Of a DNA stretch of 64,000 nt, positions 4,343-25,560 are shown in pieces (within the stretch, counting starts at the first letter, position 1; each line of letters starts with the position of its first letter). The position numbers were made by a program, and so were the translations under genes. Source of the stretch: Nitrospirillum viridazoti CBAmc (lineage in GTDB: Bacteria; Pseudomonadota; Alphaproteobacteria; Azospirillales; Azospirillaceae). Location of the stretch: NCBI RefSeq assembly GCF_000730165.1, contig NZ_CP022112.1:1156001-1220000 (forward strand), read 5' to 3'. The notes beneath the pieces are model-generated. The model worked only from the letters and a program-made list of their open reading frames with translations. It did not search any database and was not told where the DNA came from.

Positions 4343-5134
4343 ATGGCACAGAAACTCGCCTGGGGCCGTGCCTGGCATGGGCGCAGTTACGATCTCGGCC
4401 GCATGACCCTGGCGGATCTCTGGCGGGCGTACCTCACCTATCCGGCAATCCAGATCTATGGCCTGCTGGCCGTGGCCGCCGCGGCCTACACCATCGCCAC
4501 GGCGCGGCAATGGCAGGGGCCGGCGCTGGCCGTCCTGGCGGTCTTCTTCGTCTATCCCATGGCCTGGTTCCTGATTCACCGCTACATCCTGCACGGCCGC
4601 TGGCTGTATCGGATGAAATGGTCGGCCAGCCTGTGGAAGCGCATCCATTTCGACCATCACCAGGACCCGCACCTGCTGGAGGTCCTGTTCGGTTCCCCCG
4701 CCAACACGCTGCCGACCATCGCCCTGGTGTCCATGCCGGTCGGCTATGTCATCGGCGGCTGGCCGGCCGCCGGCGCGGCCCTGGCGACCGGCCTGGCCAC
4801 CACCTGCGTCTATGAATTCATCCACTGTATCCAGCACCTGAACTACAAACCCAAGAGCCGCTTCATCCAGAAGCTGAAGCGCGATCACCTGATCCATCAT
4901 TTCCATAATGAGGATACCAACCTGGGGATCGTCAGCTTCACGCCCGACCGGCTGTTCGGCACCTATTTCGCCTCGGCCCGCGACTGCCCGAAAAGCGCCA
5001 CGGTCTTCAACCTCGGCTATGACCTTGACGAGGCCCGCCGTTATCCCTGGGTGATGGAGGTGACCGGCTCGCCGCCGCGTGACCGTCCGCCAACCGCGTT
5101 CGCAACTTCTGACACAGGTGGTGCGGCCTCGTGA
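4343..5134 (+). CDS. Fatty acid hydroxylase / sterol desaturase superfamily protein
   Basis: This is a 263-residue membrane di-iron oxygenase of the fatty-acid-hydroxylase type. The histidine clusters are visible: HRYILH at 79-84, HFDHH at 102-106 and HLIHHFH at 182-188, with hydrophobic segments near 40-55, 60-78 and 125-155. The start is the ATG eight nt after a GAGG; an upstream in-frame ATG at 4241 has poorer context. Its stop overlaps the GTG start of the ceramide synthase-like gene, so the two are translationally coupled. From this context the inferred role is hydroxylation of the acyl chain or long-chain base of a sphingolipid. Family members also act on carotenoids, sterols and ether lipids, so the substrate is uncertain. 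Confidence 0.85.
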   Translation: MAQKLAWGRAWHGRSYDLGRMTLADLWRAYLTYPAIQIYGLLAVAAAAYTIATARQWQGPALAVLAVFFVYPMAWFLIHRYILHGRWLYRMKWSASLWKRIHFDHHQDPHLLEVLFGSPANTLPTIALVSMPVGYVIGGWPAAGAALATGLATTCVYEFIHCIQHLNYKPKSRFIQKLKRDHLIHHFHNEDTNLGIVSFTPDRLFGTYFASARDCPKSATVFNLGYDLDEARRYPWVMEVTGSPPRDRPPTAFATSDTGGAAS

Positions 5135-6261
5135 CCGCGATCGACATCGTCCCCGTGACGGGGCCCGCCCTTCTCGACCGTTTCATCCGCCTGCCCGAAA
5201 GGCTGCACAAGAACGATCCGCACTACATCGCGCCGCTGCATCTGGAGCGTAAAGAGGCGCTGACGGCCAAGAACCCCTTCTTCGGCCATGCCGACGTACA
5301 GTTCTGGCTGGCCCGGAAGGACGGGCGGGACGTGGGCCGGATCAGCGCCCAGATCGACCATCACGCCCTGGAACTGCGGCCGGACGGGACCGGGCAGTTC
5401 GGCCTGATCGCCGCCGAGGACGATCCGGCAGTCATCAAGGCTCTGCTGGACGTGGCCGCCGACTGGCTGCGGGCCCGCGACATGACGCGCATGCAGGGAC
5501 CGCTGAACCTGAACATCAATGAGGAGATCGGGCTGCTGGTCGACGGCTTCGGCACACCGCCCATGCTGCTCATGGGCCACGACAAGCCCTACCTGGGTCC
5601 CCGCCTGGAAGAGCAGGGACTGCGCAAGGAAAAGGACGTCTACGCCTATCTTTACGACATCACCAAGGACCTGCCCGCCGGCGCCCGCCGCCTGATCGAC
5701 CGGCCGCTGCCCAAGGGCATCACGGTGCGGCGCATGGATTTCAAGCGCTACGATGACGAGATCAAGGCCGTCACCTCCATCTTCAACGACGCCTGGCGGG
5801 ACAATTGGGGCTTCGTCCCCCTGACGGAGGTGGAGACCGACTACCTGGCCAAGTCGCTGAAGCCCTTGTTGAACCCGCGCCTGGTGCGGTTCGTGGAACA
5901 GGATGGCGAGGCGGTCGGCTTCATCGTCTGCCTGCCCAACCTGAACGAGGCCATCCGCGACCTGAACGGCAAGCTGCTGCCCCTGGGCTGGGCCAAGCTG
6001 CTGTGGCGGCTGAAGGTTGCCGGCCTCAAGACCGCGCGCGTGCCGCTGATGGGCATCCGCAAGGCGGCGTCCCAGGGCATGATCGGCAGCCTGCTGCCCT
6101 TCCTGCTGATCGACGCCGTACGCACCGACGCGGCGGCCATGGGCTTCCAGCACATCGAGCTGTCGTGGATTCTGGAGGACAACCTGCCCATGCGCCGCAT
6201 CAACGAAAGCCTGGGCGGCGTCGCGTACAAGACCTACCGCATCTATGAGAAGGCCCTCTGA
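5131..6261 (+). CDS. bcerS: Bacterial ceramide synthase-like GNAT N-acyltransferase
   Basis: This 376-residue protein belongs to the GNAT-fold family often labelled dATP pyrophosphohydrolase/N-acetyltransferase. It contains the family's early LERKEAL...NPFFGHA block (about 41-54), GRISAQIDHH (about 71-80), and a C-terminal GNAT core with VGFIVCLPN near 265-275. In Caulobacter crescentus the corresponding protein N-acylates the sphingoid base, giving ceramide. It starts with GTG, overlapping the stop of the hydroxylase gene by four nt. The neighbours CerR-like reductase, acyl-AMP ligase, ACP and serine palmitoyltransferase complete the known ceramide gene set, which strongly supports this role over a generic acetyltransferase. 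Confidence 0.8.
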   Translation: MTAIDIVPVTGPALLDRFIRLPERLHKNDPHYIAPLHLERKEALTAKNPFFGHADVQFWLARKDGRDVGRISAQIDHHALELRPDGTGQFGLIAAEDDPAVIKALLDVAADWLRARDMTRMQGPLNLNINEEIGLLVDGFGTPPMLLMGHDKPYLGPRLEEQGLRKEKDVYAYLYDITKDLPAGARRLIDRPLPKGITVRRMDFKRYDDEIKAVTSIFNDAWRDNWGFVPLTEVETDYLAKSLKPLLNPRLVRFVEQDGEAVGFIVCLPNLNEAIRDLNGKLLPLGWAKLLWRLKVAGLKTARVPLMGIRKAASQGMIGSLLPFLLIDAVRTDAAAMGFQHIELSWILEDNLPMRRINESLGGVAYKTYRIYEKAL

Positions 6262-6267
6262 CGCGGC

Positions 6268-7233
6268 TTACGGCAGCCAGCCGGCGGACCTGTACCAGCC
6301 GACGGTGTCGCGGAACCCCTGCGCCAGGCTTACGGCGGGCTGGTACACGCTTGCGGGCAGCAGTTCACCGGGCGTGACCGTCCAGTCGGGGTGCAGGATC
6401 TCCCGCGCCTTGCCCACGGTGAATATGGGGGCGATGCCGCGCACCCTTCCCCACCAGGATGAGGCCTGCCCGGCCGCTAGCAGCAGGCGGCCGGGCACCC
6501 GCAGGAACCGAGGCCGCGCGTCGCCGCGCATGGCCAGGGCGGCCTGCCGCATCATCTCGGCCATGGCATACCCGGCCGGTTCGGTATCTGCCAGGGCGTA
6601 GGTGCCCCCGTAGGAGGCCCCGGTGCCGGTCGCGACCGCGCTCAAGGCCCCGGCCGCGTCGCTGACATGGATCGCGGCCAGGCGCCCGTCGCTCACCAGT
6701 GGGACGACCGGCCGCGACGCAGTCCGGAAAATCGCCAGCGTCTCCCGATCCCAGGGGCCGTAGATCATGGGCGGGCGCAGGACGGCCAATTGACCCGGCG
6801 CGTCCGCATAAGCCTGCCGTGCCGCCTCCTCCCCCGCCCGCTTGCTGGCCGCGTAGTCCGACAGTTGCGGTTCACGCGCAGCCAGGGAGGAGACGACGAT
6901 GAGGCGGGCCTGGGGCGCCAAACGGCGCAGCGTTGAGGCCACCCGGGCGGTGCCATCCCGGTTGATGGCCATGAAGGCGTTCCGGTCCGGCGCTTTGATC
7001 AGGCCAGCGGCATGGACCAGCACCTGCGCCCCCGCGGCCAGGTGCGCCAGGGCGTCGGGATCCTCCAGCCCGCCCCGGACGGTCTCGAAGGTGAGGCCGG
7101 TCCAGGATGGGTGGTCCGGCGGCCGGCGGGCCAATATCCGCAACCGCGCGCCCGACCGCGCCAGGGTGGCAACCAGGTGCAGCCCGAGAAAGCCCGTCGC
7201 GCCCGTGACAGCGACGATGGGCCGCCCATTCAT
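6268..7233 (-). CDS. cerR: CerR-like NAD(P)-dependent reductase (extended SDR/epimerase family)
   Basis: This is a 321-residue extended short-chain dehydrogenase. The nucleotide-binding GATGFLG is at 11-17, serines are at 115-116, and the catalytic YAASK (Tyr127, Lys131) is present. Annotation as NAD-dependent epimerase is usual for this family, but in Caulobacter the member beside spt/acpR reduces the 3-oxo group of the sphingolipid backbone. The start ATG overlaps the stop of the acyl-AMP ligase (ATGA), so the two form a coupled operon. It converges on the ceramide synthase-like gene with a 6-nt gap. The assignment to CerR rests on family plus locus. Confidence 0.78.
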
Positions 7234-8984
7234 GCCGGGACGGGCTCCACCGGCGCGGAGACGCCGAGGATGGGCATGTCGCCCGCTTGGTACAGGGTCT
7301 TCGCCCGACTGCGGCTGAGCTTGCCCGACGTGGTCTGCGGCAGGCTGTGCGGCGGCACCAGGACGACGCGGACCAGCACACCGTAGCGGCTGCGGAAGAC
7401 CTGGCCGATTTCGCCGGCCAAGGCGTCCCGCGTGGCCTGGTCCTGGCTGCGGCACTGAACCAGCGCCACCACCTCTTCCTCATCGCCGCTGTCGACGGAG
7501 AAGACCGCGACATCGCCGCTGCGCAGGGCGGCGATTTCCGCCTCTGCCGTCCATTCCAGATCCTGCGGCCACAGGTTGCGGCCGTTGACGATGATCAGGT
7601 CCTTGGCCCGCCCGGTGAGGACGATCTGGTCGTCCAGCAGGTAGCCCAGGTCACCGGTATCCAGCCAGCCGTCCCCGTCCAGAACCCGAGCGGTTTCCTC
7701 CGGCGCGTCGAAATAGCCGCTCATCAGGCTGGGGCCGCGGACGAAAATCCGCCCGACGTGGCGCTGCGGCTGCGGCCGGCCGGCACCGTCGCGCACCTCG
7801 ATGGTGTGGTCGGGCAGGATGTGGCCGCAGAGCACGAAGGTGCGGCTGCGTTCGGCGCCGGGCGCGGCCGGCACGGCGCGGTGCTCCTTCTCCAGCAGGA
7901 TGCTGTCGACCACGTCGTGGCGCACGCCCTGGCCCTTGGGTGTGAAGTTCAGGGCCAGCGTCGCCTCAGCCATGCCATAGCTGGGCACGAAGGCATGGGC
8001 GTCGAAGCCGTTGGCGGCGAAGCGCGCCGCGAAGTTGGCCAGCACGTGCGGGCGAATCATGTCGCCGCCGATACCGGCGCTGCGCCAGCTGGAAAGGTCT
8101 ATCCCCTCGGTCGACAGCGTCTCCGCCCGGCGGGCGCACAACTCATACCCGAAGGATGGGCTGTAGGAGATGGTGCCGCGGTTGCGGCTGATGAGGTCAA
8201 GCCACATCAGGGGACGGCGGGCGAATTCCCGCGTGGGTAGCGTGTCCACCGACACCTGGCACGCCATGGGGATCAGCAGGAAGCCGACCAGGCCCATGTC
8301 ATGATAAAAGGGCAGCCACGAGATGCAGCGGTCACCGTCGTCGATGGCCAAGCCGGTGCGGCCCACGTGGGCGGCGTTGCTGAGGAAGGCGCGCTGGGTC
8401 ACGGCAACGCCCATGGGGAAGCGTGTGCTGCCCGATGAGAATTGCAGGTAGCTGATGCTGTCGGCGGACTGTACCGGCAGGTCGCCCGCGAACGGCGCCA
8501 CGTCGTCAAGCAGGGCCAGTGTGCCGGAAATCTTGAGGTCCAGGCACTCCGCCGACTGCACCAGCCAATCGTTGAGCATGGCCGGCCCGAAGGCAGCGGT
8601 GGCGCCGCAGCTTTCCAGCATGCGCCGGATGTGGGCGATGTAGGTGTCCTTGCCGCCGAACGCCGAGGGCAGCGGCATGGGCGCCGGCACCAGCCGGGCG
8701 TATTGGCACGCGAAGAAGGCGCGGACGAAATCACCATCGCTTTCCGCGATCAGGCCGACGCGGTCGCCGGGTTCCAGACCCATACCCAGCAGGCGGCGGG
8801 CCAGATCGATCGCCTGTTCCCGCAGGGTGGCGTAGGGCAAGGCCTCGCTGAGCACACCCTTGCCGGAATAGAAATTATAACCCGTGGGGCCCTGGGCGGC
8901 GTAATCCAGCGCGTCGGCTACGGACAGGAAATCCGCATGGCGAGTCGGGAGCCCGGGATGATGGGAGGGCGTCGGAAACGTCAT
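7230..8984 (-). CDS. aasR: Fatty acyl-AMP ligase / acyl-ACP synthetase (AasR-like)
   Basis: This 584-residue ANL-superfamily adenylating enzyme carries the P-loop-like [12 protein letters not shown] (182-193) and a downstream [11 protein letters not shown] block, typical of fatty acyl-AMP ligases that hand acyl groups to carrier proteins. In the Caulobacter ceramide pathway such an enzyme loads a dedicated acyl carrier protein (AcpR) for serine palmitoyltransferase. Here the ACP genes lie at 14488 and 23917. The gene leads a minus-strand operon with the CerR-like reductase. Use of acyl-ACP as substrate is inferred from the FAAL type and neighbours; polyketide or lipopeptide loading is unlikely because no PKS or NRPS is present. 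Confidence 0.82.
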
Positions 8985-9301
8985 TTTTACGTGTAACCCT
9001 AACTCTCTATGGCTTTACGCCGAGGGATTGGAACACAGGTATGCAAATTGATGACAGAAAGGCAAATGTGCCGTCGTTGAGGCTGATGCGCCGAACGCGG
9101 CGCTTGTGGCCGGCCCGGCGCCCCGGTAGATGGGCAAGTGGCTTTGCAGGTTCATGTCAATGCTGTTGCCGATCTATGTCATGCGCTATCGTGACCTGAG
9201 AATGCGAAGCTCCTTACCGCGGACACAACGGCACCGTCTGTGACCGAGACCCGGCGGGGCGCTGAAGATTTTTTTGCAACTAGCAACTCACAGGTTACGT
9301 C
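8985..9301. promoter_or_regulatory. Divergent promoter region, acyl-AMP ligase / inositol synthase
   Basis: About 317 nt separate two divergent genes of the lipid locus, with no open frame of interest. The last 18 nt before the inositol synthase start (from 9284) are identical to those before the second copy of that gene, while the sequence further upstream differs completely. The two copies are therefore probably driven by different promoters. Confidence 0.5.
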
Positions 9302-10513
9302 ATGCAGAGGGCCAAAATCCGTATTGCCATCGCGGGCATCGGAAACTGTGCGAGCGCGCTGATCCAGGGCATTCATTACTACACCCCTGAGCGCTGCCGC
9401 GACGGCGTGGTCGGCCTGATGCATCGTGAGATCGGCGGCTTCCTGCCCTGCGACATCGAGGTCGTCGCCGCCTTCGACGTGGACGCGCGCAAGGTGGGCA
9501 CCGACGTCCATCGCGCCATCTTCGCCAAGCCCAACTGCACCAAGGTTTTCCAGGCCGACATTCCCGACAGCGGCGTGACCGTCAAGATGGGCCAGGTGCT
9601 GGACGGCATCTCCGACCACATGGCGGACTATTCGGAAGACCGCACCTTCGTGCGCGCCGACGCGGCCGAGCTGAGCAAGGACGAGATCGTCGCCGAGCTG
9701 AAGCGCACCGGCGCCGAGGTCCTGCTGAACTACATGCCCGTGGGCTCCGAACAGGCCGCCCGCTTCTACGCGGAATGCGCGCTGGAGGCCGGCGTCGCCT
9801 TCATCAACAACATGCCGGTGTTCATCGCCAGCGACAAAGCCTTCGCCGACCGCTTCAAGGCCCGCAACCTGCCCATCATCGGCGACGACATCAAATCCCA
9901 GCTGGGCGCCACCATCACCCACCGCGTGCTGACTGACCTGTTCGCCAAGCGCGGCGTGAAGCTGCGCCGCACCTACCAGCTCAACACCGGCGGCAACACC
10001 GACTTCCTCAACATGAAGAACCAGCACCGCCTGGTCTCCAAGAAGAAGTCGAAGACGGAGGCCGTGCAGGCCGTCGCCCACAAGCGCATCGAGGACGACA
10101 ACATCCACGTCGGCCCCAGCGACTACGTGCCCTGGCAGAACGACAACAAGCTGTGCTTCATCCGCATGGAGGGCTATCTGTTCGGCGACGTCCCCATGGA
10201 TATCGAGCTGCGCCTGTCGGTCGAGGACTCGCCCAATTCCGCCGGCGTCGTCATCGACATGATCCGTTGCTGCAAGCTGGCCCTGGACAACGGCATCGGC
10301 GGCATCCTGGAAGGACCCAGCGCCTATTTCTGCAAGCACCCCCCGGTCCAGTACACCGACGACGACGCCTACCAGATGACCGAGACCTTCATCCGCGGCA
10401 CCACCCTGAAGCTCGCCGTCGCCAAATGAAGTGCCTGATCGTCGCAGCCGGGCAAGGAACCCGGCTGCGGGAGCGCGGCCTGCTCAAGCCGCTGATCCCC
10501 ATCAAGGGCAGCC
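9284..10513 (+). repeat. Duplicated segment A1 (inositol synthase plus start of nucleotidyltransferase)
   Basis: This segment is near-identical to 22627-23854. It begins 18 nt before the inositol synthase ATG and stops abruptly 88 nt into the nucleotidyltransferase gene. I count about seven single-base differences inside the inositol synthase gene, all silent, and two one-base deletions in the other copy after it. Confidence 0.92.
9302..10429 (+). CDS. ino1: myo-Inositol-1-phosphate synthase, copy 1
   Basis: This 375-residue enzyme converts glucose-6-phosphate to inositol-3-(1-)phosphate with NAD. The Rossmann GIGNCASALIQG is at 12-23, and the family's core (GDDIKSQLGATITHRVL, then TYQLNTGGNTDFLNM) follows around 200-245. 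It resembles the actinobacterial/thermophile-length form rather than the roughly 510-residue eukaryotic one. The stop overlaps the ATG of a nucleotidyltransferase, which is followed by a CDP-alcohol phosphotransferase, so the inositol phosphate is probably used for a lipid headgroup. The protein is identical to that of the second copy. Alternative fates such as osmolyte or thiol synthesis are less supported by the neighbourhood. Confidence 0.92.
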   Translation: MQRAKIRIAIAGIGNCASALIQGIHYYTPERCRDGVVGLMHREIGGFLPCDIEVVAAFDVDARKVGTDVHRAIFAKPNCTKVFQADIPDSGVTVKMGQVLDGISDHMADYSEDRTFVRADAAELSKDEIVAELKRTGAEVLLNYMPVGSEQAARFYAECALEAGVAFINNMPVFIASDKAFADRFKARNLPIIGDDIKSQLGATITHRVLTDLFAKRGVKLRRTYQLNTGGNTDFLNMKNQHRLVSKKKSKTEAVQAVAHKRIEDDNIHVGPSDYVPWQNDNKLCFIRMEGYLFGDVPMDIELRLSVEDSPNSAGVVIDMIRCCKLALDNGIGGILEGPSAYFCKHPPVQYTDDDAYQMTETFIRGTTLKLAVAK

Positions 10514-11142
10514 CCCTGATCGAACGCGTGATGGAGCGGGGGCGCGCCGCCGGCGTCACGGAATTCGTGGTAGTCAGCGGCTATCGCGGCGAAGATCTGC
10601 GGGCGGCCGTGGATGTCCTGGCGGCGCGGGTTGGCGTTGCCGTCTCCCATGTCGTCAACGACGAATGGGAACGGGCCAACGGCGTCTCGGTCCACAAGGC
10701 GAAGGCCCTGCTGGCGGAGCCATTCCTGCTGACCATGTGCGATCACCTGGTGGACCCCGGCATTTTCCAGGGCCTGATGGCGCTGCGGCCAGAACCGGAC
10801 AGCGTGACCCTGGCCGTCGACTTCAACATCGAACGGCCGTTGAACGACCCGGAAGACGTCACGCGCGTGAAGTGCGTGGATGGCCGGATCGTGCACATCG
10901 GCAAGGTTATCCGCGACTTCAACGCCTTCGATACCGGCGTCTTCCTCTGCACGCCGGGCATGTTCGCGGCGCTGGAGGAAAGCCAAGCCAAGGGCGACGA
11001 CAGCATCTCGGGCGCCATGAACGTGCTGGCGGGGTGGAAGAAGGCCTGCGTCCACGACATCGGCGACCGGTTCTGGATCGACGTAGACGACCCGGTCGCG
11101 TTCGAGAAGGCCGAAAAGCTTCTGGACGCCGGCCAGCTCTGA
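10426..11142 (+). CDS. Inositol-1-phosphate cytidylyltransferase-like nucleotidyltransferase
   Basis: This is a 238-residue nucleotidyltransferase of the GT-A-like sugar-phosphate type. It has an N-terminal activation loop AAGQGTRLRERGLLKPL (7-23), a metal-site Asp in TMCDHLVDP and a C-terminal FWIDVDDPVAFEKAEK. The same order occurs in the cytidylyltransferase half of archaeal and thermophile IPCT/DIPPS proteins that make CDP-inositol. It overlaps the inositol synthase by four nt, with the CDP-alcohol phosphotransferase starting four nt after its stop. Activation of inositol phosphate with CTP is inferred from this sandwich. Sequence alone cannot exclude CDP-glycerate (as for Caulobacter CpgD) or a sugar phosphate. 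Confidence 0.78.
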   Translation: MKCLIVAAGQGTRLRERGLLKPLIPIKGSPLIERVMERGRAAGVTEFVVVSGYRGEDLRAAVDVLAARVGVAVSHVVNDEWERANGVSVHKAKALLAEPFLLTMCDHLVDPGIFQGLMALRPEPDSVTLAVDFNIERPLNDPEDVTRVKCVDGRIVHIGKVIRDFNAFDTGVFLCTPGMFAALEESQAKGDDSISGAMNVLAGWKKACVHDIGDRFWIDVDDPVAFEKAEKLLDAGQL

Positions 11143-11145
11143 GCC

Positions 11146-12024
11146 ATGCAAACCACTGAACCGGTCAAGCGGACCTCCGAAATCGAGGAGGTCACCAACC
11201 TGTACGTCATCCATCCCATCTCAAGCTGGCTGACCCCCAGGTTCGCCGCCCTGGGGATACCGCCGAACGCGGTGTCCCTGGCCGGGATGGCCTTCGGCAT
11301 CGCCGCCGGCGTGGCCTACGCCCATTACCAGACCCTGGCGTCGACGGTGGCGGCCTTCGTCCTGATGATCGCCTGGCACGTCATGGACGGCGCCGACGGC
11401 CAGTTGGCCCGGCTGACCAACGCGCAGTCGGAAACCGGCAAGATCCTGGACGGCATCTGCGACTACGTCACCTTCATCGCCGTCTATGTCGGCCTGGCCA
11501 TGACGCTGGCGGCGGAACAAGGCGGCTGGGTGTGGATCGTCATCGTGGCCGCCGGCGTGGCCCACGCGGTCCAGTCCGCCGCCTATGAGATGCAGCGCCA
11601 GTGCTACAACTTCTGGGGCTGGGGACGGAAATCCGCCGAGCTGGCCAAGCTGGACACCCCGGCGGCGCACCGCCCGGGCGTGCTGGGCGCGCTCTACCGC
11701 CTGTATCTGCACCTGCAGTACCTGACGACGGGCGTCACCGTTGGCTTCCACGACGAACTGGCGCGTGCCTTGGCCGCCGATGAGGCCCGCGCACCGAAGA
11801 TTCGGGAGGCGTACCGGGCCGCCTTCGCCCCGGCGGTGCGGCGCTGGTCCATCCTGTCGGCCAACTATCGCACGCTGGGCATTTTCATCGCTGCCGCCGC
11901 GGGCCGGCCGCTGCTGTATTTCTGGTTCGAGCTGGTGGGCTTCAGCGTGATCCTGGCCGTCCTGCTGTCGCGCCAGGCCGCCCGCTCCGCCCGCTTCCTC
12001 ACGAGCCTGCGACAGGCGGCATAG
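11146..12024 (+). CDS. CDP-alcohol phosphotransferase family protein (candidate inositol-phosphoceramide synthase)
   Basis: This is a 292-residue integral membrane enzyme. The signature D-x2-D-G-x2-A-R-x8-G-x3-D-x3-D is complete: Asp81, Asp84, Gly85, Ala88, Arg89, Gly98, Asp102, Asp106. Several hydrophobic helices surround it (about 45-78, 108-140, 240-275). Such enzymes move a phospho-alcohol from a CDP carrier to a hydroxyl acceptor. Next to inositol synthase and an IPCT-like gene, CDP-inositol is a plausible donor; next to ceramide genes, ceramide is a plausible acceptor. A PI-phosphate synthase using CDP-diacylglycerol is the main alternative. The 3' end overlaps that of the convergent lptG-like gene by 26 nt. 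Confidence 0.8.
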   Translation: MQTTEPVKRTSEIEEVTNLYVIHPISSWLTPRFAALGIPPNAVSLAGMAFGIAAGVAYAHYQTLASTVAAFVLMIAWHVMDGADGQLARLTNAQSETGKILDGICDYVTFIAVYVGLAMTLAAEQGGWVWIVIVAAGVAHAVQSAAYEMQRQCYNFWGWGRKSAELAKLDTPAAHRPGVLGALYRLYLHLQYLTTGVTVGFHDELARALAADEARAPKIREAYRAAFAPAVRRWSILSANYRTLGIFIAAAAGRPLLYFWFELVGFSVILAVLLSRQAARSARFLTSLRQAA

Positions 12025-18538: not shown

Positions 18539-18604
18539 TCCTTTGTCCCTTCGCTTTGAAACACGGCCTGCTGCGAAACACGATCTGCTGCGCGGAATGT
18601 CCCT

Positions 18605-19639
18605 ATGACCTCGACGACTGACACCACCCGTCCCGGCCGCCTGGAAAACCTGGCCGCCGGTCTCCGCTTCGCCGCCCGCGCCGTCGGGCAGCGGTATACG
18701 CCGCTGCTGGCCCAGGTCGTGGTGACGCGCCGCTGCAACTTGGCCTGCGGCTATTGCAACGAATACGACGACTTCTCCCCGCCCGTGCCGCTGAAGGATC
18801 TGCTGGCGCGCGTCGACCATCTGGCGGCGCTGAAGACGTCCTCCATCACCTTCACGGGCGGCGAGCCCCTGCTGAACCCCGACCTGGACAAGGCCGTGCG
18901 CCATGCCCGGCAAAAGGGCATGATCGTCACCACCATCACCAACGGCTTCCGCCTGACCAAGGAATGGATCGACCGCCTGAACGCCGCCGGCCTTCAGGGC
19001 ATGCAGATCAGCATCGACAACCTTGAGCCCGACGAAATCTCGATGAAGAGCCTGAAGTCGGTCGAGGGCAAGCTGGAGCTGCTGTCCAAGCATGCGCTGT
19101 TCAAGGTGAACGTGAACTCCGTGCTGGGCGTCACCGGGGAGCGGACGCAGGACGTGGTGACGGTGGCGGAAACGGCGGCCAAGTTCGGGCTGCAGCATTC
19201 CGTGGGCGTGCTGCACGACGGCAGCGGCACGCTGAAGCCCCTGAGCCCGGCGCAGATGCTGGCCTATGAGAAGGTCACCCAGATTTCGCCGTCGCTGGTG
19301 CACACCCTGAACTACCGGCTGTTCCAGAAAAACCTGATGAACGGCCAGGCCAACGACTGGCACTGCCGCGCCGGCGCCCGCTACCTTTACGTCACCGAGG
19401 ACGGGCGGGTGCATTGGTGTTCGCAGCAGCGGGGCTATCCCAACAAGCCGCTGCTGGACTACACGCTGGAAGACATCAAGCGGGAATACCACACCGAAAA
19501 GGGCTGCGCCCCGACCTGCACACTGAGCTGCGTGCACCAGATGAGCATGTTCGACCGGCGGCGCCAGTCCATTCCGGACCCCACGGTCCGGCCCGCCGGC
19601 GCGCCACCGGCGGATGGTGCTGCCAAGCCGGTCAGCTGA
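18605..19639 (+). CDS. Radical SAM protein with C-terminal cysteine-rich (SPASM-like) region
   Basis: This is a 344-residue radical SAM enzyme. The [4Fe-4S]-binding CNLACGYC supplies Cys44, Cys48 and Cys51, followed by a TFTGGEPLL (GGEP) motif. A C-terminal set of cysteines (WHC, HWC, then GCAPTCTLSC at about 302-311) suggests an auxiliary cluster, as in SPASM or twitch domains. It lies 66 nt downstream of the PIG-L gene on the same strand. The reaction is unknown; by position it could modify the sphingolipid backbone, acyl chain or headgroup. No precursor peptide gene is visible nearby, which argues against a RiPP maturase role. Confidence 0.82.
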   Translation: MTSTTDTTRPGRLENLAAGLRFAARAVGQRYTPLLAQVVVTRRCNLACGYCNEYDDFSPPVPLKDLLARVDHLAALKTSSITFTGGEPLLNPDLDKAVRHARQKGMIVTTITNGFRLTKEWIDRLNAAGLQGMQISIDNLEPDEISMKSLKSVEGKLELLSKHALFKVNVNSVLGVTGERTQDVVTVAETAAKFGLQHSVGVLHDGSGTLKPLSPAQMLAYEKVTQISPSLVHTLNYRLFQKNLMNGQANDWHCRAGARYLYVTEDGRVHWCSQQRGYPNKPLLDYTLEDIKREYHTEKGCAPTCTLSCVHQMSMFDRRRQSIPDPTVRPAGAPPADGAAKPVS

Positions 19640-21071
19640 CCGGCTTTTCCCGGTCGTACCGGAACAGCCCGCCATAGGCGGCCGCCATCGCCACCGCGAC
19701 GATGGCGACGCTGACGGCGGGCCGGTCCCCCCCGGGCAGCAGGCGCAGGGTCCAGACCACGGCGGCCATGAGGGCTACGCCGGCGGCGGGCAGCAGGAAG
19801 GCGCGGGCGACGCTGGCGGTGCCGATGGCCCATGTCCGCTCCAGATAGCGGGCGCCCCACGCCAGCAGCGGCGGATAGATGGCCAGCCACACGGCCGCGA
19901 CGGCGATGATTCCGCCCTCGGCCGGCAGCAGGATGCCCACCGCCACGATGCCGGCGCTCAGCAGGGTCAGCGTGGCGGCCGACAGCTGGGCCGCCAGGCC
20001 CGGCCGGCCCGACGCCATCATCAGCGGCGTCAGCAGTTGCGAGGTCACACGCAGCAGGGCGGCCGCGGCCAACAGCTTTAGCGGCAGGGCGGCGGCGGCA
20101 TAGCTGAGGCCGTGGTCGTCATGGATCAGGGTGGTCAGGGGATCGGCCGCCAGGATCAGGCCCACCATCAGGGGGGCCGTCAGCAATGCCAGCCGGCGCA
20201 AGGACCAGGTGAGCGACTGGGTCAGCCCGGCCCTGTCGCCAGCCAGGCGGGCGAAGACGGGCAGCGCCGTGCGGTTGATGAGCGTGCCCACCGCCATCAC
20301 CGGTTCCATGGCGATGTCGAAGGCGACGCGGTACAGCGCCAGGGGGGCCGGGCCGTAGAACCAGCCCACCAGCAGGAAATCGACGTTCTTGAAGATCTGC
20401 TCGAACAGGTTGACCGCCGCGGCGCGGAAACCGAAGCGGACCAGGCCGCGGATGTCGTCCAGCCGGAAATGCGCCCCCGGGCGGAAGGGGCGTGCCAGCG
20501 TGGCGCCGACCAGCGTGTAGAGGCCGCTGGAAACATAACCCGCCACCAGGGCCCAGGCCCCGGCGCCCGCCACGGCCAAGCCCAGCCGCGTCAGCGCCGC
20601 CCCCAGCGTGGCCGCCACGTTGACGACGGCGATCCGCTCATATTTCAGGTCGCGGTTCAGCAGCGCCAGCGGGATCACCGCGGCGGCGACCATCGGCTGC
20701 TTGGCGGCCACGGCGATGAAGTAGGCCGCCATGCCGGTAACGCCATACAGGGCCTCCAGCCCCGGCGCCACGGCCAAGGTCACGGCCCCCATGAGGAAGG
20801 CGGCGCCCAGGATAAACCAGAAAAGGCTGTCCAGCTGACGCTTGGCCACCGTGGGCGCCTGGACCAGGGCGTCGCCCGTGCCCAACCCGTCGAAGGCCTC
20901 GATCACCATGCCGGTGGAGATGACCAGCGAGGCCACGCCCACCTGTTCCTTGCTGAGGAAGGTCAGTACGGCGAGGATGGTGGAGAAGTCGATGACCTTG
21001 GCCAGGACGGTGGCGCCGCCCAGCCAGTTGAAGCCCCGGCGCAGATGGCGCTGATGATCGCCGTCGCTCAC
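19632..21071 (-). CDS. Wzx/MATE-type (oligo)saccharide lipid flippase
   Basis: This 479-residue polytopic membrane protein has about 12 to 14 hydrophobic helices and the N-terminal RRGFNWLGGATVLAKV region typical of polysaccharide-export flippases of the MOP superfamily. These move lipid-linked glycans across the inner membrane. It is followed on the minus strand by nothing and preceded (18 nt) by a glycosyltransferase gene, so the two are one operon. It converges on the radical SAM gene with an 8-nt overlap. In this locus the cargo may be a glycosylated sphingolipid; capsule or O-antigen intermediates are the alternative. Confidence 0.83.
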   Translation of the reverse strand: MSDGDHQRHLRRGFNWLGGATVLAKVIDFSTILAVLTFLSKEQVGVASLVISTGMVIEAFDGLGTGDALVQAPTVAKRQLDSLFWFILGAAFLMGAVTLAVAPGLEALYGVTGMAAYFIAVAAKQPMVAAAVIPLALLNRDLKYERIAVVNVAATLGAALTRLGLAVAGAGAWALVAGYVSSGLYTLVGATLARPFRPGAHFRLDDIRGLVRFGFRAAAVNLFEQIFKNVDFLLVGWFYGPAPLALYRVAFDIAMEPVMAVGTLINRTALPVFARLAGDRAGLTQSLTWSLRRLALLTAPLMVGLILAADPLTTLIHDDHGLSYAAAALPLKLLAAAALLRVTSQLLTPLMMASGRPGLAAQLSAATLTLLSAGIVAVGILLPAEGGIIAVAAVWLAIYPPLLAWGARYLERTWAIGTASVARAFLLPAAGVALMAAVVWTLRLLPGGDRPAVSVAIVAVAMAAAYGGLFRYDREKPVS

Positions 21072-21089
21072 GTCGCGCTATCCATTGTC

Positions 21090-22373
21090 CTATCCATTCC
21101 GGGCCCTATCCATTCCGAGGGGGGCCTCGGGACGGGGCGGCAGCACCCAGGCACCTTTGTTGACCAGGTGGGCCAGCCAGTGGCGCGACTGCTGGCGCCA
21201 CGCCCGGAATTCCCGCCTGCCCCAGGTGCCCGCCCTTACCGGGGCGGTGCTCATGCGCTCCTCCACCAGAGCATGGATGCGCTGGGCCCGCGCGGCCCAG
21301 GTATAGTCGCGGCTGTCGGCCAGGGCCGTTTCCGCCAAGCGGGCGGCACGGGCCGGATCGCCCAGCAGCGCGTCAATGCCGGCGACCAGGTCGGGTACGG
21401 AATCGGGCGGGCAGAGATGGGCGTTTTCATCGTGGTGCAGGACCTCGCCCACGTCGGGCGTGCGCCCGGCCAGGATGGGCCGGCCGGAAGCGAGGTAGAA
21501 GAACACCTTCAGCGGCAGGACCGTCGATCCGAACTCCGCCAGCGGCAGCCAGGACGGTGGAATCAGCAGGATGTCGGCGGCGTAGACATAGTCGGCCAGC
21601 TTGTCCGCCGGCTGATAGGGGACGATGCGCACATTGGGCACGTCGCGGGCCATGGCCTCGATCGGCCCTTCCCCATACGATCCCACCAGGATGAACAGCA
21701 CGTCCGGCCGCTCCCTGGCCGCCTCGACCGCCAGGGCCAAGCCCTTCTTGTGGTTCACCCGGCCGGTGTAGACGACCGTCTTCTGACCGGGCTCGACGCC
21801 GATCCGCCGCTTGGCCTCCTCCAGGGGAATGCGGGCTTGGAACCGCGCCGGCTCATAGCCGTTGCGGATACAGTGCACCTTGTCCTCGGGAATTCCCAAG
21901 GCCAGGTATTTGCGCCGGGTGTAGTCGGAATGGCAGATCTTGACGATGAAGCGCGGGTGGCTGAGCAGGCGGTACAGCCAGAACTGCAGCGGCGGAATCT
22001 GGTCGGGCCATGGGCGGTAGTGGTCGAAGGCAACCTTCTGCCCGAACAGGATGGCCATCCAGGCGACCCACAGGTTGCGGGTGTAGATCACGTCGGCGCG
22101 GCGAAACTCTCTCCGGAAAGGCAGGGTGAGCCCGCAGAGGAAATGCCGCAGCGCCGCCGGCGTGATCGGTGCCCGCGCGTCGACCACCGGCATCCCGGCC
22201 AGGGCCTCCGCCGCCGCCCGCCCCGCCGCGTCCTTCAGGGGGACGTGCAACCACGCCCCTTCCGTCAGCGGGGCCAGATACCGGGCCGTGGTGGTAAATA
22301 CTTCGGCGTCCGCTTCGGTGCTTGGTAAAGGGTTCTCGAAAGTGAATAATATTCGCATCGAAAACTGCACCAT
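21090..22373 (-). CDS. GT-B glycosyltransferase
   Basis: This is a 427-residue GT4-like protein. It has FENPLPSTEADAEVF at the N-terminus (about 11-25), a donor-domain VVYTGRVNHKKGLAL near 200, an AADILLIPPSW block and FYLASGRPILA. A second possible start lies five codons later; neither has a clear ribosome site. It is first in a two-gene minus-strand operon with the flippase and is divergent from inositol synthase copy 2. It is likely a second sugar-adding step on the same lipid or glycan. Confidence 0.8.
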   Translation of the reverse strand: MVQFSMRILFTFENPLPSTEADAEVFTTTARYLAPLTEGAWLHVPLKDAAGRAAAEALAGMPVVDARAPITPAALRHFLCGLTLPFRREFRRADVIYTRNLWVAWMAILFGQKVAFDHYRPWPDQIPPLQFWLYRLLSHPRFIVKICHSDYTRRKYLALGIPEDKVHCIRNGYEPARFQARIPLEEAKRRIGVEPGQKTVVYTGRVNHKKGLALAVEAARERPDVLFILVGSYGEGPIEAMARDVPNVRIVPYQPADKLADYVYAADILLIPPSWLPLAEFGSTVLPLKVFFYLASGRPILAGRTPDVGEVLHHDENAHLCPPDSVPDLVAGIDALLGDPARAARLAETALADSRDYTWAARAQRIHALVEERMSTAPVRAGTWGRREFRAWRQQSRHWLAHLVNKGAWVLPPRPEAPLGMDRARNG

Positions 22374-22644
22374 GGGAGAGCGGAGGGGTGCCCGTTTCTT
22401 TCATAGGTGACAGCCGGATTCAATAGCGACGGCCCCCACCGTTCCTCTCACCGGGCATGCTGAATGGCCGGTTGGAATCCGGCCCCGGCACGCCGCTTAT
22501 GGGTCCCGCGGGCGGAAATGGCGCCGATACGGTGTGTCGGCCATCATTTCCGTCACAAAAGTGTGAGGGTGCTCACATCCTTTTGGCGCGCCTTGCCCGA
22601 CTTTCGACTACCATTTTGCAAATTCCCAACTCACAGGTTACGTC
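22374..22644. promoter_or_regulatory. Divergent promoter region, glycosyltransferase / inositol synthase copy 2
   Basis: About 271 nt lie between divergent genes with no supported open frame. The final 18 nt before the inositol synthase start are shared with copy 1; upstream of that the sequence is different. The stretch around 22590-22625 is AT-richer than its surroundings and may hold the plus-strand promoter. Confidence 0.4.
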
Positions 22645-23772
22645 ATGCAGAGGGCCAAAATCCGTATTGCCATCGCGGGCATCGGAAACTGTGCGAGCGC
22701 GCTGATCCAGGGCATTCATTACTACACCCCTGAGCGCTGCCGCGACGGCGTGGTCGGCCTGATGCATCGTGAGATCGGCGGCTTCCTGCCCTGCGACATC
22801 GAGGTCGTCGCCGCCTTCGACGTGGACGCGCGCAAGGTGGGCACCGACGTCCATCGCGCCATCTTCGCCAAGCCCAACTGCACCAAGGTTTTCCAGGCCG
22901 ACATTCCCGACAGCGGCGTGACCGTCAAGATGGGCCAGGTGCTGGACGGCATTTCCGACCACATGGCGGACTATTCGGAAGACCGCACCTTCGTGCGCGC
23001 CGACGCGGCCGAGCTGAGCAAGGACGAGATCGTCGCCGAGCTGAAGCGCACCGGCGCCGAGGTCCTGCTGAACTACATGCCCGTGGGCTCCGAACAGGCC
23101 GCCCGCTTCTACGCGGAATGCGCGCTGGAGGCCGGCGTCGCCTTCATCAACAACATGCCGGTGTTCATCGCCAGCGACAAAGCCTTCGCCGACCGCTTCA
23201 AGGCCCGCAACCTGCCCATCATCGGCGACGACATCAAATCCCAGCTGGGCGCCACCATCACCCACCGCGTGCTGACCGACCTGTTCGCCAAGCGCGGCGT
23301 GAAGCTGCGCCGCACCTACCAGCTCAACACCGGCGGCAACACCGACTTCCTCAACATGAAGAATCAGCACCGCCTGGTCTCCAAGAAGAAGTCGAAGACG
23401 GAGGCCGTGCAGGCCGTCGCCCACAAACGCATCGAGGACGACAACATCCACGTCGGCCCCAGCGACTACGTGCCCTGGCAGAACGACAACAAGCTGTGCT
23501 TCATCCGCATGGAGGGCTATCTGTTCGGCGACGTCCCCATGGATATCGAGCTGCGCCTGTCGGTCGAGGACTCGCCCAATTCCGCCGGCGTCGTCATCGA
23601 CATGATCCGCTGCTGCAAGCTGGCCCTGGACAACGGCATCGGCGGCATCCTGGAAGGACCCAGCGCCTATTTCTGCAAGCATCCCCCGGTCCAGTACACC
23701 GACGACGATGCCTACCAGATGACCGAGACCTTCATCCGCGGCACCACCCTGAAGCTCGCCGTCGCCAAATGA
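22645..23772 (+). CDS. ino1: myo-Inositol-1-phosphate synthase, copy 2
   Basis: 375 residues, identical in amino-acid sequence to copy 1, with the same GIGNCASALIQG dinucleotide motif. The roughly seven nucleotide differences between copies that I found are all in third codon positions. It is followed not by an intact nucleotidyltransferase but by its first codons with frameshifts, then by ACP copy 2 and serine palmitoyltransferase copy 2. It is therefore the head of a condensed second sphingolipid/inositol operon. The exact protein identity suggests either recent duplication, gene conversion or strong selection. Confidence 0.93.
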   Translation: MQRAKIRIAIAGIGNCASALIQGIHYYTPERCRDGVVGLMHREIGGFLPCDIEVVAAFDVDARKVGTDVHRAIFAKPNCTKVFQADIPDSGVTVKMGQVLDGISDHMADYSEDRTFVRADAAELSKDEIVAELKRTGAEVLLNYMPVGSEQAARFYAECALEAGVAFINNMPVFIASDKAFADRFKARNLPIIGDDIKSQLGATITHRVLTDLFAKRGVKLRRTYQLNTGGNTDFLNMKNQHRLVSKKKSKTEAVQAVAHKRIEDDNIHVGPSDYVPWQNDNKLCFIRMEGYLFGDVPMDIELRLSVEDSPNSAGVVIDMIRCCKLALDNGIGGILEGPSAYFCKHPPVQYTDDDAYQMTETFIRGTTLKLAVAK

Positions 23773-23854
23773 AGTGCCTCATCGTCGCAGCCGGGCAAGG
23801 AACCCGGCTGCGAAGCGCGGCCTGCTCAAGCCGCTGACACCATTAAGGGCAGCC
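23769..23854 (+). pseudogene. Truncated remnant of the inositol-phosphate nucleotidyltransferase gene
   Basis: The first 15 codons (MKCLIVAAGQGTRLR) match the intact gene at 10426. A one-base deletion then shifts the frame and gives a stop at 23835-23837. A second one-base deletion follows, and homology is lost after 23854. About 630 nt of the intact gene, the CDP-alcohol phosphotransferase and the lptFG pair are missing from this copy. The start still overlaps the inositol synthase stop. Confidence 0.88.
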
Positions 23855-23876
23855 GTCGCCCATGCGATCGGGTCCG

Positions 23877-23902
23877 CTCATAACGTTCCCCCTCATAACG
23901 TT
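23877..23902 (+). repeat. Tandem 11-nt direct repeat before ACP copy 2
   Basis: CTCATAACGTT occurs at 23877-23887 and again at 23892-23902, a 15-nt period, 15 nt before the start codon of ACP copy 2. It is not present in front of copy 1. It could be a regulator-binding repeat; nothing else supports that. Confidence 0.4.
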
Positions 23903-23916
23903 TCCGATGCCAAGAT

Positions 23917-24168
23917 ATGCAGAACTCCGCAGAGCAGATCCGGTCGCTTGTCTTCGACGCCCTCCGTGCCGCGCTGGATAGGCCCGTCGAATTTTCGGAT
24001 GATACGAACATCACCGAAGGCCTCGGTCTGGATTCGGTTGCAGTCATGGATTTCGTGATGGAGATCGAGGATGCGCTCGACATCTCCATCCCGCTGGATC
24101 GGATCGCCGAGGTGAAGACCGTCGGCGACCTCGTCGCCGCGGCGCAGGACCTTAAGGGCGGCCGCTGA
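23917..24168 (+). CDS. acpR: Acyl carrier protein (AcpR-like), copy 2
   Basis: An 83-residue ACP with the phosphopantetheine serine Ser40 in GLGLDSVAVMDF. It differs from copy 1 at about ten positions, all near the ends; residues 27 to 71 are the same. It lies three nt before serine palmitoyltransferase copy 2 and about 145 nt after inositol synthase copy 2. No strong ribosome site is visible. It presumably carries the acyl chain for the adjacent enzyme. Confidence 0.87.
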   Translation: MQNSAEQIRSLVFDALRAALDRPVEFSDDTNITEGLGLDSVAVMDFVMEIEDALDISIPLDRIAEVKTVGDLVAAAQDLKGGR

Positions 24169-25372
24169 TCCATGGCCCTCTTCGACAAGTACGCGCCCCT
24201 GATGGGGCAGTTCGAGAGCCTGGAATCCACCGGCTACAACCCCTTCAACGTCAGCTTCGACCGGGTGCTCTCCCCCACCGAGGGGGTGATCGCCGGCCGG
24301 CGCATCCTGCTGCTGGGCACCAACAACTACCTGGGGTTGACCTACGACCCCGACGTGATCGACGCCGCCGTCGCCGCGACCCGCAGCCTGGGCGCCGGCA
24401 CCACCGGCTCGCGCGTCGCCAACGGCAGCTACGGCGGCCACCGGCAGCTGGAACGCCACCTGGCCGACTTCTACGGCCGGCAGCACTGCATGGTGTTCTC
24501 CACCGGCTATCAGGCCAACCTGGGCATCCTCTCCGCCCTGGCCGGCAAGGACGACCACCTGATCCTGGACGCCGACAGCCACGCCAGCATCTATGACGGC
24601 TCCCGCCTGGGCCACGCCCAGGTCACCCGTTTCCGCCACAACGACCCCGACGACCTGGACAACCGCCTGCGCCGTCTGGCCGACACCCCCGGCGACAAGG
24701 TCATCGTCGTCGAGGGCATCTATTCCATGCTGGGCGACACCGCCCCCTTGCGCGAGTTCGTCGAGGTCAAGCGCAAGTGGGGCGCCTACCTGGTGGTGGA
24801 CGAGGCCCATTCCCTGGGCGTCCTGGGGCGCACCGGGCGCGGACTGGCCGAGGCGGCCGGCGTCGAGGATGAGGTCGACTTCGTCGTCGGCACCTTCTCC
24901 AAGAGCCTGGGCGGCATCGGCGGCTTCTGCGTCAGCGACATGGACGGATTCGACATCCTGCGCGTCGCCAGCCGGCCCTACATGTTCACCGCCTCCCTGC
25001 CCCCGGCCGTGGTGGCGGCGGTGACGGAGGCGCTGAACCAGCTGCGCCACCGCCCGGCGCTGCGCCAGCAGCTGATGGACAACGCCCGCCGCTTCCATGC
25101 CGGCCTCGGCGACCTGGGCTTCCATGTCGGGCCAGAGGCCAGCCCCGTCGTCTCCGCCATCATGCCCGATCCCAAGACGGCCTTCGCTTTCTGGACCCGG
25201 CTGCTGGAGGCCGGCCTCTACACCAACGTCAGCCTCCCCCCCGCCACGCCCAAGGGCCTCGCCCTGCTCCGCTCCAGCGTCAGCGCCGCCCACAGCCGCA
25301 GCCAGATCGACCACGCCCTCTCCCTGTTCGCAGACACCGGACGCGAACTGGGCCTCATCCCGGCCGAGCCGG
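23932..25372 (+). repeat. Duplicated segment B2 (ACP plus serine palmitoyltransferase)
   Basis: Counterpart of 14503-15943 at a constant 9429-nt offset with no indels noticed. It ends within the 3' part of the gene, after which copy 2 continues with a unique tail of about 60 codons. Confidence 0.92.
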
Positions 25373-25560
25373 CCATCCCCACCTGGGTCAAACATCCCAC
25401 GGCGACCCTCGCCGGCGCCGAGCCGCAGGACGCCCTCGCCATCGGTTTCCGCAGCCAGCTGCTGGCGCGGCTGGCGGCCCCCAGCAAGGCGATGGCAAAG
25501 TACTATTCCGCCTTCCGTCGCCAGTCCCCTGGCCGCGCCCGCATCGTGGGCGACAAATAG
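24172..25560 (+). CDS. spt: Serine palmitoyltransferase, copy 2 (with C-terminal extension)
   Basis: 462 residues. Residues 1 to about 400 equal copy 1 except for two substitutions near the N-terminus (Phe7 to Tyr, Arg12 to Gly). The PLP lysine Lys244 and the DEAHSLG aspartate and histidine are present. It then has an unrelated tail of about 60 residues, rich in Ala/Arg/Lys (including FRSQLLARLAAPSKAMAKYY), instead of the 11-residue tail of copy 1. The catalytic core of this family ends near residue 395, so the tail is an addition of unknown role, possibly for membrane or partner contact. Both copies look functional. Confidence 0.87.
   Translation: MALFDKYAPLMGQFESLESTGYNPFNVSFDRVLSPTEGVIAGRRILLLGTNNYLGLTYDPDVIDAAVAATRSLGAGTTGSRVANGSYGGHRQLERHLADFYGRQHCMVFSTGYQANLGILSALAGKDDHLILDADSHASIYDGSRLGHAQVTRFRHNDPDDLDNRLRRLADTPGDKVIVVEGIYSMLGDTAPLREFVEVKRKWGAYLVVDEAHSLGVLGRTGRGLAEAAGVEDEVDFVVGTFSKSLGGIGGFCVSDMDGFDILRVASRPYMFTASLPPAVVAAVTEALNQLRHRPALRQQLMDNARRFHAGLGDLGFHVGPEASPVVSAIMPDPKTAFAFWTRLLEAGLYTNVSLPPATPKGLALLRSSVSAAHSRSQIDHALSLFADTGRELGLIPAEPAIPTWVKHPTATLAGAEPQDALAIGFRSQLLARLAAPSKAMAKYYSAFRRQSPGRARIVGDK

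Follow-up and report, generated by a model that had tools for sequence, protein, structure and literature searches.

Glycosyl-inositol-phosphoceramides (GIPCs) are lipids familiar chiefly from plants and fungi. Among described bacterial systems, the ceramide phosphoglycerate (CPG/CPG2) cluster of Caulobacter crescentus, CC_1168-CC_1152, in which CpgD makes CDP-glycerate, is the subject of PMC12275187 and PMC11324152. For Prevotella and Bacteroides vulgatus, Heaver et al. 2022 proposed a CDP-inositol route, as yet unconfirmed, in which diacylglycerol would be the first acceptor and a HAD protein would then lead on to ceramide; a phosphoinositol-dihydroceramide-like lipid without a known cluster is noted there for Novosphingobium acidiphilum (PMC9246714). 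The locus considered here lies at positions 4343-25560 of a 64-kb stretch of DNA from Nitrospirillum viridazoti CBAmc, a bacterium of soil and plants (the window, which is 1156001-1220000 of the 1.6-Mb contig C3 in a genome of 7.38 Mb on four contigs). Ceramide, inositol-phosphate, glycosylation and export genes form one block in it, which probably makes and exports a glycosylated inositol-phosphoceramide. Among titles and abstract openings found in the literature on Azospirillum, Acidocella, Nitrospirillum, Novosphingobium and bacterial inositol sphingolipids, none describes such a cluster.

The ceramide module of the block consists of serine palmitoyltransferase (SPT), acyl carrier protein (ACP), acyl-AMP ligase, a CerR-like reductase, a CerS-like protein and a fatty-acid hydroxylase; the inositol module has inositol-1-phosphate synthase (Ino1), a cytidylyltransferase of the inositol-1-phosphate cytidylyltransferase (IPCT) type and a CDP-alcohol phosphotransferase (below, the transferase). 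The remaining genes are for two GT4 glycosyltransferases (GT1 and GT2), a PIG-L deacetylase, a radical SAM enzyme, a MOP flippase, a second LptF/LptG pair and a DUF2141 protein. The order, with minus-strand genes marked (-), is fatty-acid hydroxylase, CerS-like, CerR-like (-), acyl-AMP ligase (-), Ino1, IPCT-type enzyme, transferase, LptG (-), LptF (-), ACP, SPT, DUF2141 (-), GT1, PIG-L, radical SAM, MOP flippase (-), GT2 (-), after which Ino1, ACP and SPT come a second time. A sequence-only reading had listed most of these, and family-model matches and homology found each gene type it named at its place, the five ceramide types together included (the CerR and CerS labels coming from homology and context only). 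The hydroxylase gene at 4343-5134, the DUF2141 gene and the ino1/ACP/SPT duplication are additions to it.

With the Prevotella/B. vulgatus cluster, as described in PMC9246714, the window has in common Ino1, an NTP transferase and a CDP-alcohol phosphotransferase, but it adds ceramide genes, glycosyltransferases, PIG-L and LptF/G in the same block, and no HAD family turned up in that block. B. thetaiotaomicron BT_1522-1526 is alike in Ino1 and in belonging to the predicted inositol-phosphoceramide product class, whereas the block is without a recognised AUR1-like gene and the BT1523 model scores far under its cut-off. From thermophile and archaeal IPCT-DIPPS systems (2xme, 4jd0, 4mnd) come the IPCTs that are the nearest solved relatives of the window enzyme, while the window transferase is no close relative of DIPPS. 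The parallel to plant and fungal GIPC, to glycosylphosphatidylinositol (GPI) and to mycothiol is in the predicted logic of a glycosyl-inositol product, namely a GT4 enzyme followed by a PIG-L deacetylase, together with a ceramide hydroxylase. With the enzymes otherwise bacterial and no AUR1-type inositol-phosphoceramide synthase recognised in the block, the route would be analogous, and the GIPC parallel drawn in the sequence-only reading is one of predicted product.

Like the Caulobacter CPG/CPG2 cluster and clusters on Roseomonas and Diaphorobacter plasmids, the block joins a ceramide module to a second LptF/LptG pair and to nucleotidyltransferase and CDP-alcohol phosphotransferase genes (Caulobacter also having a flippase); compared by way of the Roseomonas proteins with clusters of this CPG type, it has Ino1, the IPCT-type enzyme, glycosyltransferases and PIG-L instead. 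The plasmid clusters were among the 16 records, none over 80% query coverage, returned by a plasmid DNA similarity search, as were Sphingomonas ino1 loci. The SPT, acyl-AMP ligase, CerS and CerR of the window are 46-61% identical to genes of the Roseomonas and Diaphorobacter clusters, which hold HIT, metallophosphoesterase and phosphocholine-cytidylyltransferase-family genes as well (and in Roseomonas a diacylglycerol-kinase-family gene), a set that looks like the CPG2 set of Caulobacter as given in PMC11324152 and PMC12275187. At 1e-3 the 64-kb window holds no match to six Roseomonas genes (the kinase-family gene, the one in CpgC position, the HIT and metallophosphoesterase genes, the second NTP-transferase and the flippase), among which are the presumed counterparts of the ceramide kinase CpgB, of CpgC and of their partners in the CPG/CPG2 headgroup pathway; the Roseomonas cytidylyltransferase and CDP-alcohol phosphotransferase have weak ones there, and for LptF/G one has a 23% match and the other none. 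The ceramide module is therefore common, and the headgroup genes, flippase and LptF/G differ strongly. As a separate matter, the Diaphorobacter cluster (SPT, ACP, acyl-AMP ligase, CerS-like, LptF/G and CDP-alcohol phosphotransferase genes) is near a Tn3 transposase on pDCB2 of strain JS3051 (NZ_CP065408.1, L016), an IncP plasmid typed as conjugative, and sphingolipid synthesis may be mobile between Proteobacteria.

Recurrence of the block in other genera rules out adjacency by chance. Counted over its 17 gene types, one congener (G004; L019, L020) has 17/17 and a second (G005; L017, L018) 16/17, PIG-L being absent, while two Acidocella, A. aromatica (L030) and one other (L081), each have 15/17, DUF2141 and radical SAM genes not being found, in all four with the same order and orientation. 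Five partial contigs (L021, L022, L024, L029, L031) are consistent with the block as far as their sequence runs, save that L021, from Azospirillum sp. B4, is without PIG-L and has its flippase match split in two pieces. G261, of another family, has the block rearranged over two contigs, both ending inside SPT, with 16/17 types, the DUF2141 gene among them, and GT2 not seen where the contigs end. Nguyenibacter has Ino1-IPCT-transferase-LptG-LptF on one contig and acyl-AMP ligase-ACP-SPT with the hydroxylase on another; the transferase is 56-62% conserved in these Acidocella and Nguyenibacter clusters, which are rich in genes for lipids and for export. Transferases borne on such clusters group into one clade in a tree of 28 rows, together with one from the Sphingomonadaceae genome G352 (96/95; 94/91, unstarred, when G352 is left out).

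Across genomes, SPT is present in all 12 tested that bear the transferase (G001-G005, G306-G312), and in the congener G006, where the transferase match is weak (3.4e-7), there is no SPT at 1e-60 and no Ino1 at 1e-20. In G024 the Ino1-IPCT-transferase set is a remote one (61, 36 and 29% identical), and the SPT-like match is just 38% identical. Outside the cluster-bearing group, 53 named loci were compared (50 Sphingomonas, 2 Croceicoccus and 1 titled Microvirga), and Ino1, IPCT and transferase genes are side by side in 50 of these, the three misses running into contig ends; a strong acyl-AMP ligase or CerR match is in the flanks of three (L035, L040, L075), and in 50 of the loci each further neighbour is common to at most 11, open reading frames (ORFs) overlapping the trio excepted. 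In Sphingomonas yabuuchiae the trio is 7.6-9 kb away from CerR-ACP-SPT genes. A scan of named genomes by a pair of short peptide patterns brought up no Novosphingobium. Over 347 Sphingomonadaceae genomes, Ino1 (1e-50) is in 47 of the 48 with the transferase (1e-20) and in 43 of the 299 without it (Fisher p 1e-31); SPT, near universal there (336/347), speaks neither for nor against the ceramide link in that sample. Of these 48 genomes, 30 gave transferase loci with short flanks, Ino1 being seen in 3; among 10 loci with 7-8 kb flanks, 7 have Ino1 and IPCT, and 3 have neither nearby, with Ino1 elsewhere in the genome. In at least 5 of the 7 a second protein similar to the transferase is in between (larger, and between transferase and Ino1, in L138-L142), and 8 of the 10 also have two further nearby genes in common. 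A class-wide sample, with up to 8 candidates scored per genome, had the transferase in 2 of 289 genomes at 1e-15, the window's own included, and at that depth it looks rare across the class. Distant Ino1 proteins (55 and 58%) are found in two family relatives with weak transferase matches (G007:C1:807152-808213 and G012:C1:3592649-3593716), in which inositol-1-phosphate may have another use.

A further tie between the two branches is a duplication. The sequence at 22614-23854 repeats 9272-10513 at 98.6%, and 23923-25372 repeats 14494-15943 at 97.3%, so that ino1, ACP and SPT genes are each present twice. Ino1 copy 2 (22645-23772, +) is identical in protein to copy 1, with 7 synonymous and 0 nonsynonymous differences; ACP copy 2 (23917-24168, +; PF00550, 5.2e-13) differs at 8 of 83 residues; and SPT copy 2 (24172-25560, +), in which a new C-terminal tail replaces that of copy 1, differs from it within the first 399 codons by 14 synonymous and 2 nonsynonymous changes. 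The mostly synonymous change suggests that the Ino1 and SPT copies are under purifying selection. After the second ino1 there is a nucleotidyltransferase stub of only about 80 bp, the remnant of a second IPCT gene (23769-23854, +) at which the repeat ends, and the second unit is without transferase and LptF/G; it is the entry enzymes of the inositol and sphingoid branches that are kept together. G003 also carries this unit (L098; two SPT matches), and none was seen in the stretches read of G004 and G005. That ino1, ACP and SPT were duplicated as one unit is further support for one joint product.

Both Ino1 genes of the genome are in the window. Copy 1 (9302-10429, +; PF01658, 3.4e-35) has its stop codon overlapped by the IPCT-type gene (10426-11142, +; the ORF at 10431-11159 is in the wrong frame and has no Pfam match), and the transferase (11146-12024, +; PF01066, 3.3e-15) follows, so that the three genes expected of a CDP-inositol route are adjacent at 9302-12024. 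The three best solved relatives of the IPCT-type enzyme are all inositol-1-phosphate cytidylyltransferases (2xme, 8.5e-18; 4mnd, 4.2e-17; 4jd0, 1.5e-13, the last so named in PMC12275187), with other solved nucleotidyltransferases starting at 1.6e-9 and phosphocholine cytidylyltransferase at 1.9e-5. Its FDTGVF stretch is also in 4jd0 and nearly in 2xme, was not seen in the Roseomonas and Diaphorobacter phosphocholine-cytidylyltransferase-family proteins, and in one Croceicoccus relative is DMG at that place. No NCBIfam cut-off is reached, the best model being Thermococcales IPCT-DIPPS (117 bits, cut-off 580). The enzyme is predicted, from its closeness to characterised IPCTs, to be a CTP:inositol-1-phosphate cytidylyltransferase. 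In the transferase, all residues of D-x2-DG-x2-AR-x8-G-x3-D-x3-D, which we take to be the catalytic motif of CDP-alcohol phosphotransferases, are invariant in 40 of 40 aligned sequences (its own and 39 of 58 usable relatives). Its AlphaFold model (pLDDT 88, pTM 0.85) has the CDP-alcohol phosphotransferase fold, with AF2299 as first match and PIP synthases, DIPPS and CEPT1 after it, all at a query TM score of at most 0.49. By sequence the transferase matches the solved IPCT-DIPPS protein poorly (E 0.4), and the BT1523-type PIP synthase model gives 20.7 bits against a cut-off of 350.

In the ceramide module, SPT copy 1 (14743-15978, +) has bacterial SPTs as best solved relatives (2x8u, 2e-139), passes the NCBIfam equivalog SerpalmtaseBetaP (NF047599; 675.8 bits, cut-off 500) and is below SerpalmtaseAlphaP (505.5 bits, cut-off 670). 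The fatty acyl-AMP ligase (7230-8984, -) matches NF006624 (853 bits, cut-off 600), and ACP copy 1 (14488-14739, +) is placed by its translation and its similarity to copy 2; the three agree with what is expected of proteobacterial ceramide biosynthesis (aasR, cerR, acpR, spt, cerS). Curated models name neither the candidate CerS (5131-6261, +), a GNAT-type protein scoring 20.0, just under the Pfam cut-off of 20.7, nor the candidate CerR (6268-7233, -, presumed start), an NAD-dependent epimerase/dehydratase-type reductase (PF01370, 1.6e-19); the former is 53-58% and the latter 46-47% identical to genes of the Roseomonas and Diaphorobacter SPT clusters. The fatty-acid hydroxylase (4343-5134, +; PF04116, 2e-19), a candidate ceramide hydroxylase, has its start set at the ATG that corresponds to the first codon of the Acidocella gene, in an ORF opening at 4241; among solved proteins yeast ceramide hydroxylase SCS7 (7e-6) is the sole relative found below E 0.1, and the gene is conserved in Acidocella and G261. 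The LptG (11999-13108, -, presumed start; TIGR04408, 332.8 bits) and LptF (13095-14246, -; TIGR04407, 262.7 bits) paralogues both pass their models and are a second pair, another being on contig C2, much as Caulobacter has LptF2/G2, and the DUF2141 protein (15972-16500, -, start approximate; PF09912, 1.6e-27) is 40% identical to that of the Roseomonas SPT cluster.

For the glycan, GT1 (16603-17739, +, presumed start; PF00534, 6.9e-41) has as best solved relatives a phosphatidylinositol mannosyltransferase (presumably the PimB' that acts on phosphatidylinositol monomannoside), 3c4q/3c48 (which we take to be MshA) and BshA-type enzymes; its best NCBIfam models, EpsE, BshA and others, are all under cut-off, as is the WcaI-type model that is best for GT2 (21090-22373, -; PF00534, 3.4e-16). 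The PIG-L type deacetylase (17729-18538, +, presumed start) barely passes Pfam (PF02585, 2.5e-6; 28.5 against a cut-off of 28.2), and the best E-value for its AlphaFold model is to MshB, the GlcNAc-inositol deacetylase (2.9e-7; query TM 0.42-0.47), so that family and fold agree (the model was built from four sequences and has pLDDT 79, four others having 49-62). The pairs PIG-A/PIG-L, MshA/MshB and BshA/BshB work by the same succession of glycosyltransferase and PIG-L-type deacetylase. Between them and GT2 are the radical SAM enzyme (18605-19639, +; PF04055, 4.7e-22), present in Nitrospirillum loci and G261, and the MOP-family flippase (19632-21071, -; PF13440, 3.2e-50). Three Acidocella loci and G261 have in addition, beside ino1, a DXD glycosyltransferase (PF04488; L030:6702-7703, L103:2402-3370; best solved match 0.083), of a family that presumably includes the SUR1/CSH1-type inositol-phosphoceramide mannosyltransferases of yeast; it has no match in the window or in the other loci compared. 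Since the presence of PIG-L, radical SAM and DXD glycosyltransferase differs between loci, the glycan varies and is not fixed. Support for a glycosylated headgroup comes from the conserved linkage of two GT4 enzymes and the MOP flippase, and from the DXD glycosyltransferase in Acidocella and G261.

In the pathway that we propose, ACP, acyl-AMP ligase, SPT, CerR and CerS would build (dihydro)ceramide as in Caulobacter, and the fatty-acid hydroxylase would hydroxylate it; Ino1 would supply inositol-1-phosphate, from which the IPCT-type enzyme would make CDP-inositol; and the transferase would use CDP-inositol as donor and place its phosphoinositol on ceramide, CMP being released, so that inositol-phosphoceramide would arise directly and need neither phosphatidylinositol nor an AUR1-type synthase. 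GT1 would then add a sugar to the inositol, with PIG-L present probably N-acetylglucosamine (GlcNAc) converted to glucosamine (GlcN), GT2 and the radical SAM enzyme would extend or modify the glycan, and the MOP flippase would turn the lipid over for the second LptF/LptG pair to send it toward the outer membrane. What the analysis established is the identity of the genes, their conservation, linkage and co-occurrence, and the duplication; substrates and products throughout are presumed ones, taken from the Caulobacter literature for ceramide assembly and export and from homology for the steps between. An inositol sphingolipid product is well supported because of the conserved synteny, the joint absence in G006, the IPCT-type enzyme and the duplicated ino1-ACP-SPT unit, and there is good reason to expect that the locus makes an inositol-phosphoceramide of some sort. 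Of the glycosylated inositol-phosphoceramide with hexosamine that the sequence-only reading had proposed, the inositol sphingolipid is thus upheld by synteny, co-occurrence and the IPCT-type enzyme, and glycosylation by the linkage of GT4 and flippase genes, and the hexosamine depends on PIG-L, which two congeneric loci lack; GlcN as the sugar is a tentative assignment. Equally to be held as a conjecture is the most specific form of the proposal, in which the transferase is a direct CDP-inositol:ceramide inositolphosphotransferase, a Kennedy-type inositol-phosphoceramide synthase unrelated to AUR1, and the product, exported to the outer membrane by the dedicated LptF/LptG, is glucosaminyl-inositol-phosphoceramide, an independently evolved counterpart of fungal and plant GIPC and of the GPI core.

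What weighs against the proposal is best considered together with the other explanations of the locus. The transferase has human CEPT1 and cholinephosphotransferase among its sequence relatives, and CEPT1/CHPT1 use diacylglycerol; acceptor specificity is not readable from sequence, and the fold relatives include PIP synthases and DIPPS. In 50 of the 53 non-cluster loci there is no strong sphingolipid-gene match in the fetched flanks, and 3 of the 48 transferase-bearing Sphingomonadaceae genomes (G471, G582, G591) have no SPT match at 1e-90. The transferase relatives and the distance of most Sphingomonas trios from sphingolipid genes would fit two lipids from one locus, with phosphoinositol placed on diacylglycerol and the resulting phosphatidylinositol glycosylated like mycobacterial phosphatidylinositol mannosides, ceramide having another headgroup or none, and a diacylglycerol-borne phosphatidylinositol is what Heaver et al. 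proposed as first product of the analogous Bacteroidetes cluster (PMC9246714). That G006 lacks SPT, Ino1 and a strong transferase match all at once, together with a conserved order that interleaves these genes with ceramide and LptF/G genes in other genera, the duplication of ino1-ACP-SPT as a unit and the five Roseomonas headgroup-type genes without a window match, nonetheless makes two such lipids unlikely. Smaller still is the chance that phosphatidylinositol is made first and that an enzyme whose gene lies outside the block passes its phosphoinositol on to ceramide, the way Bacteroides or yeast do it: the route is described for B. thetaiotaomicron (PMC9246714), and two PAP2_3 genes on contig C2, just over cut-off, would permit it, but both matches are weak, neither PAP2 (AUR1-type) nor HAD families are among the block ORFs scanned, and the transferase falls far short of the BT1523-type model.

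The IPCT relatives belong to the pathway of di-inositol phosphate, and one could suppose that the Ino1-IPCT-transferase trio makes this soluble osmolyte, as happens in thermophiles, and that the sphingolipid cluster next to it is an ordinary one; the poor match of the transferase to solved IPCT-DIPPS and its conservation within the lipid and export gene clusters of Acidocella and Nguyenibacter leave that very improbable. With regard to the sugar, the best matches of GT1 are mostly within its nucleotide-sugar half; teicoplanin-type deacetylases, at 7.5e-6 or weaker, exceed MshB in TM (up to 0.53) against the PIG-L model; by sequence the best solved match of PIG-L is a benzylsuccinate CoA-transferase subunit (0.0026), MshB being at 0.078; and, at the level of the locus only, G005 and Azospirillum sp. 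B4 are without PIG-L and Acidocella without the radical SAM enzyme. GT4 with a MOP flippase is a usual polysaccharide pattern, the best NCBIfam models of GT1 and GT2 (EpsE and WcaI-type) are in keeping with it, and the flippase has no match to that of the Roseomonas SPT cluster. GT, PIG-L, radical SAM, flippase and GT genes might then be a separate surface polysaccharide operon that adjoins sphingolipid genes, an arrangement compatible with inositol-phosphoceramide and itself rather unlikely, in that Nitrospirillum, Acidocella and, for all its rearrangement, G261 have these genes directly next to SPT or to LptF/DUF2141, and no polymerase or chain-length family is among the ORFs scanned.

Elsewhere in the window, the minus strand of 1-3630 encodes a repetitive autotransporter-like protein (so labelled by eye) that runs off the window start; a plus-strand ORF at 1000-3633 in the same DNA has no Pfam match and was dropped as a gene, and related repetitive DNA is downstream of the cluster in G005 (L018). 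Beyond the cluster, 26913-47666 has AAA ATPase, HSP20, nicotinate phosphoribosyltransferase, PHB depolymerase, alpha/beta hydrolase, universal stress protein, PRPP-synthetase-like, APH-family, chaperonin and cation P-type ATPase genes. An Rfam scan of the window gave no match.

What is new here is an alphaproteobacterial cluster of the CDP-inositol type tied to ceramide synthesis and export, with a Caulobacter-type ceramide module and another headgroup module, which suggests that in Proteobacteria one common ceramide module is joined to headgroup modules of different kinds. The cluster provides a concrete and testable enzyme set for CDP-inositol-based synthesis of inositol-phosphoceramide, and the Ino1-IPCT-transferase trio of Sphingomonas relatives could explain the lipid noted for Novosphingobium acidiphilum (PMC9246714). 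NLP proteins of plant-pathogenic microbes bind plant GIPC, according to PMC6743777. If the proposal is true, a plant-associated bacterium with a GIPC of its own would show lipid evolution to have converged, and in a way that could matter for plant-microbe contact.

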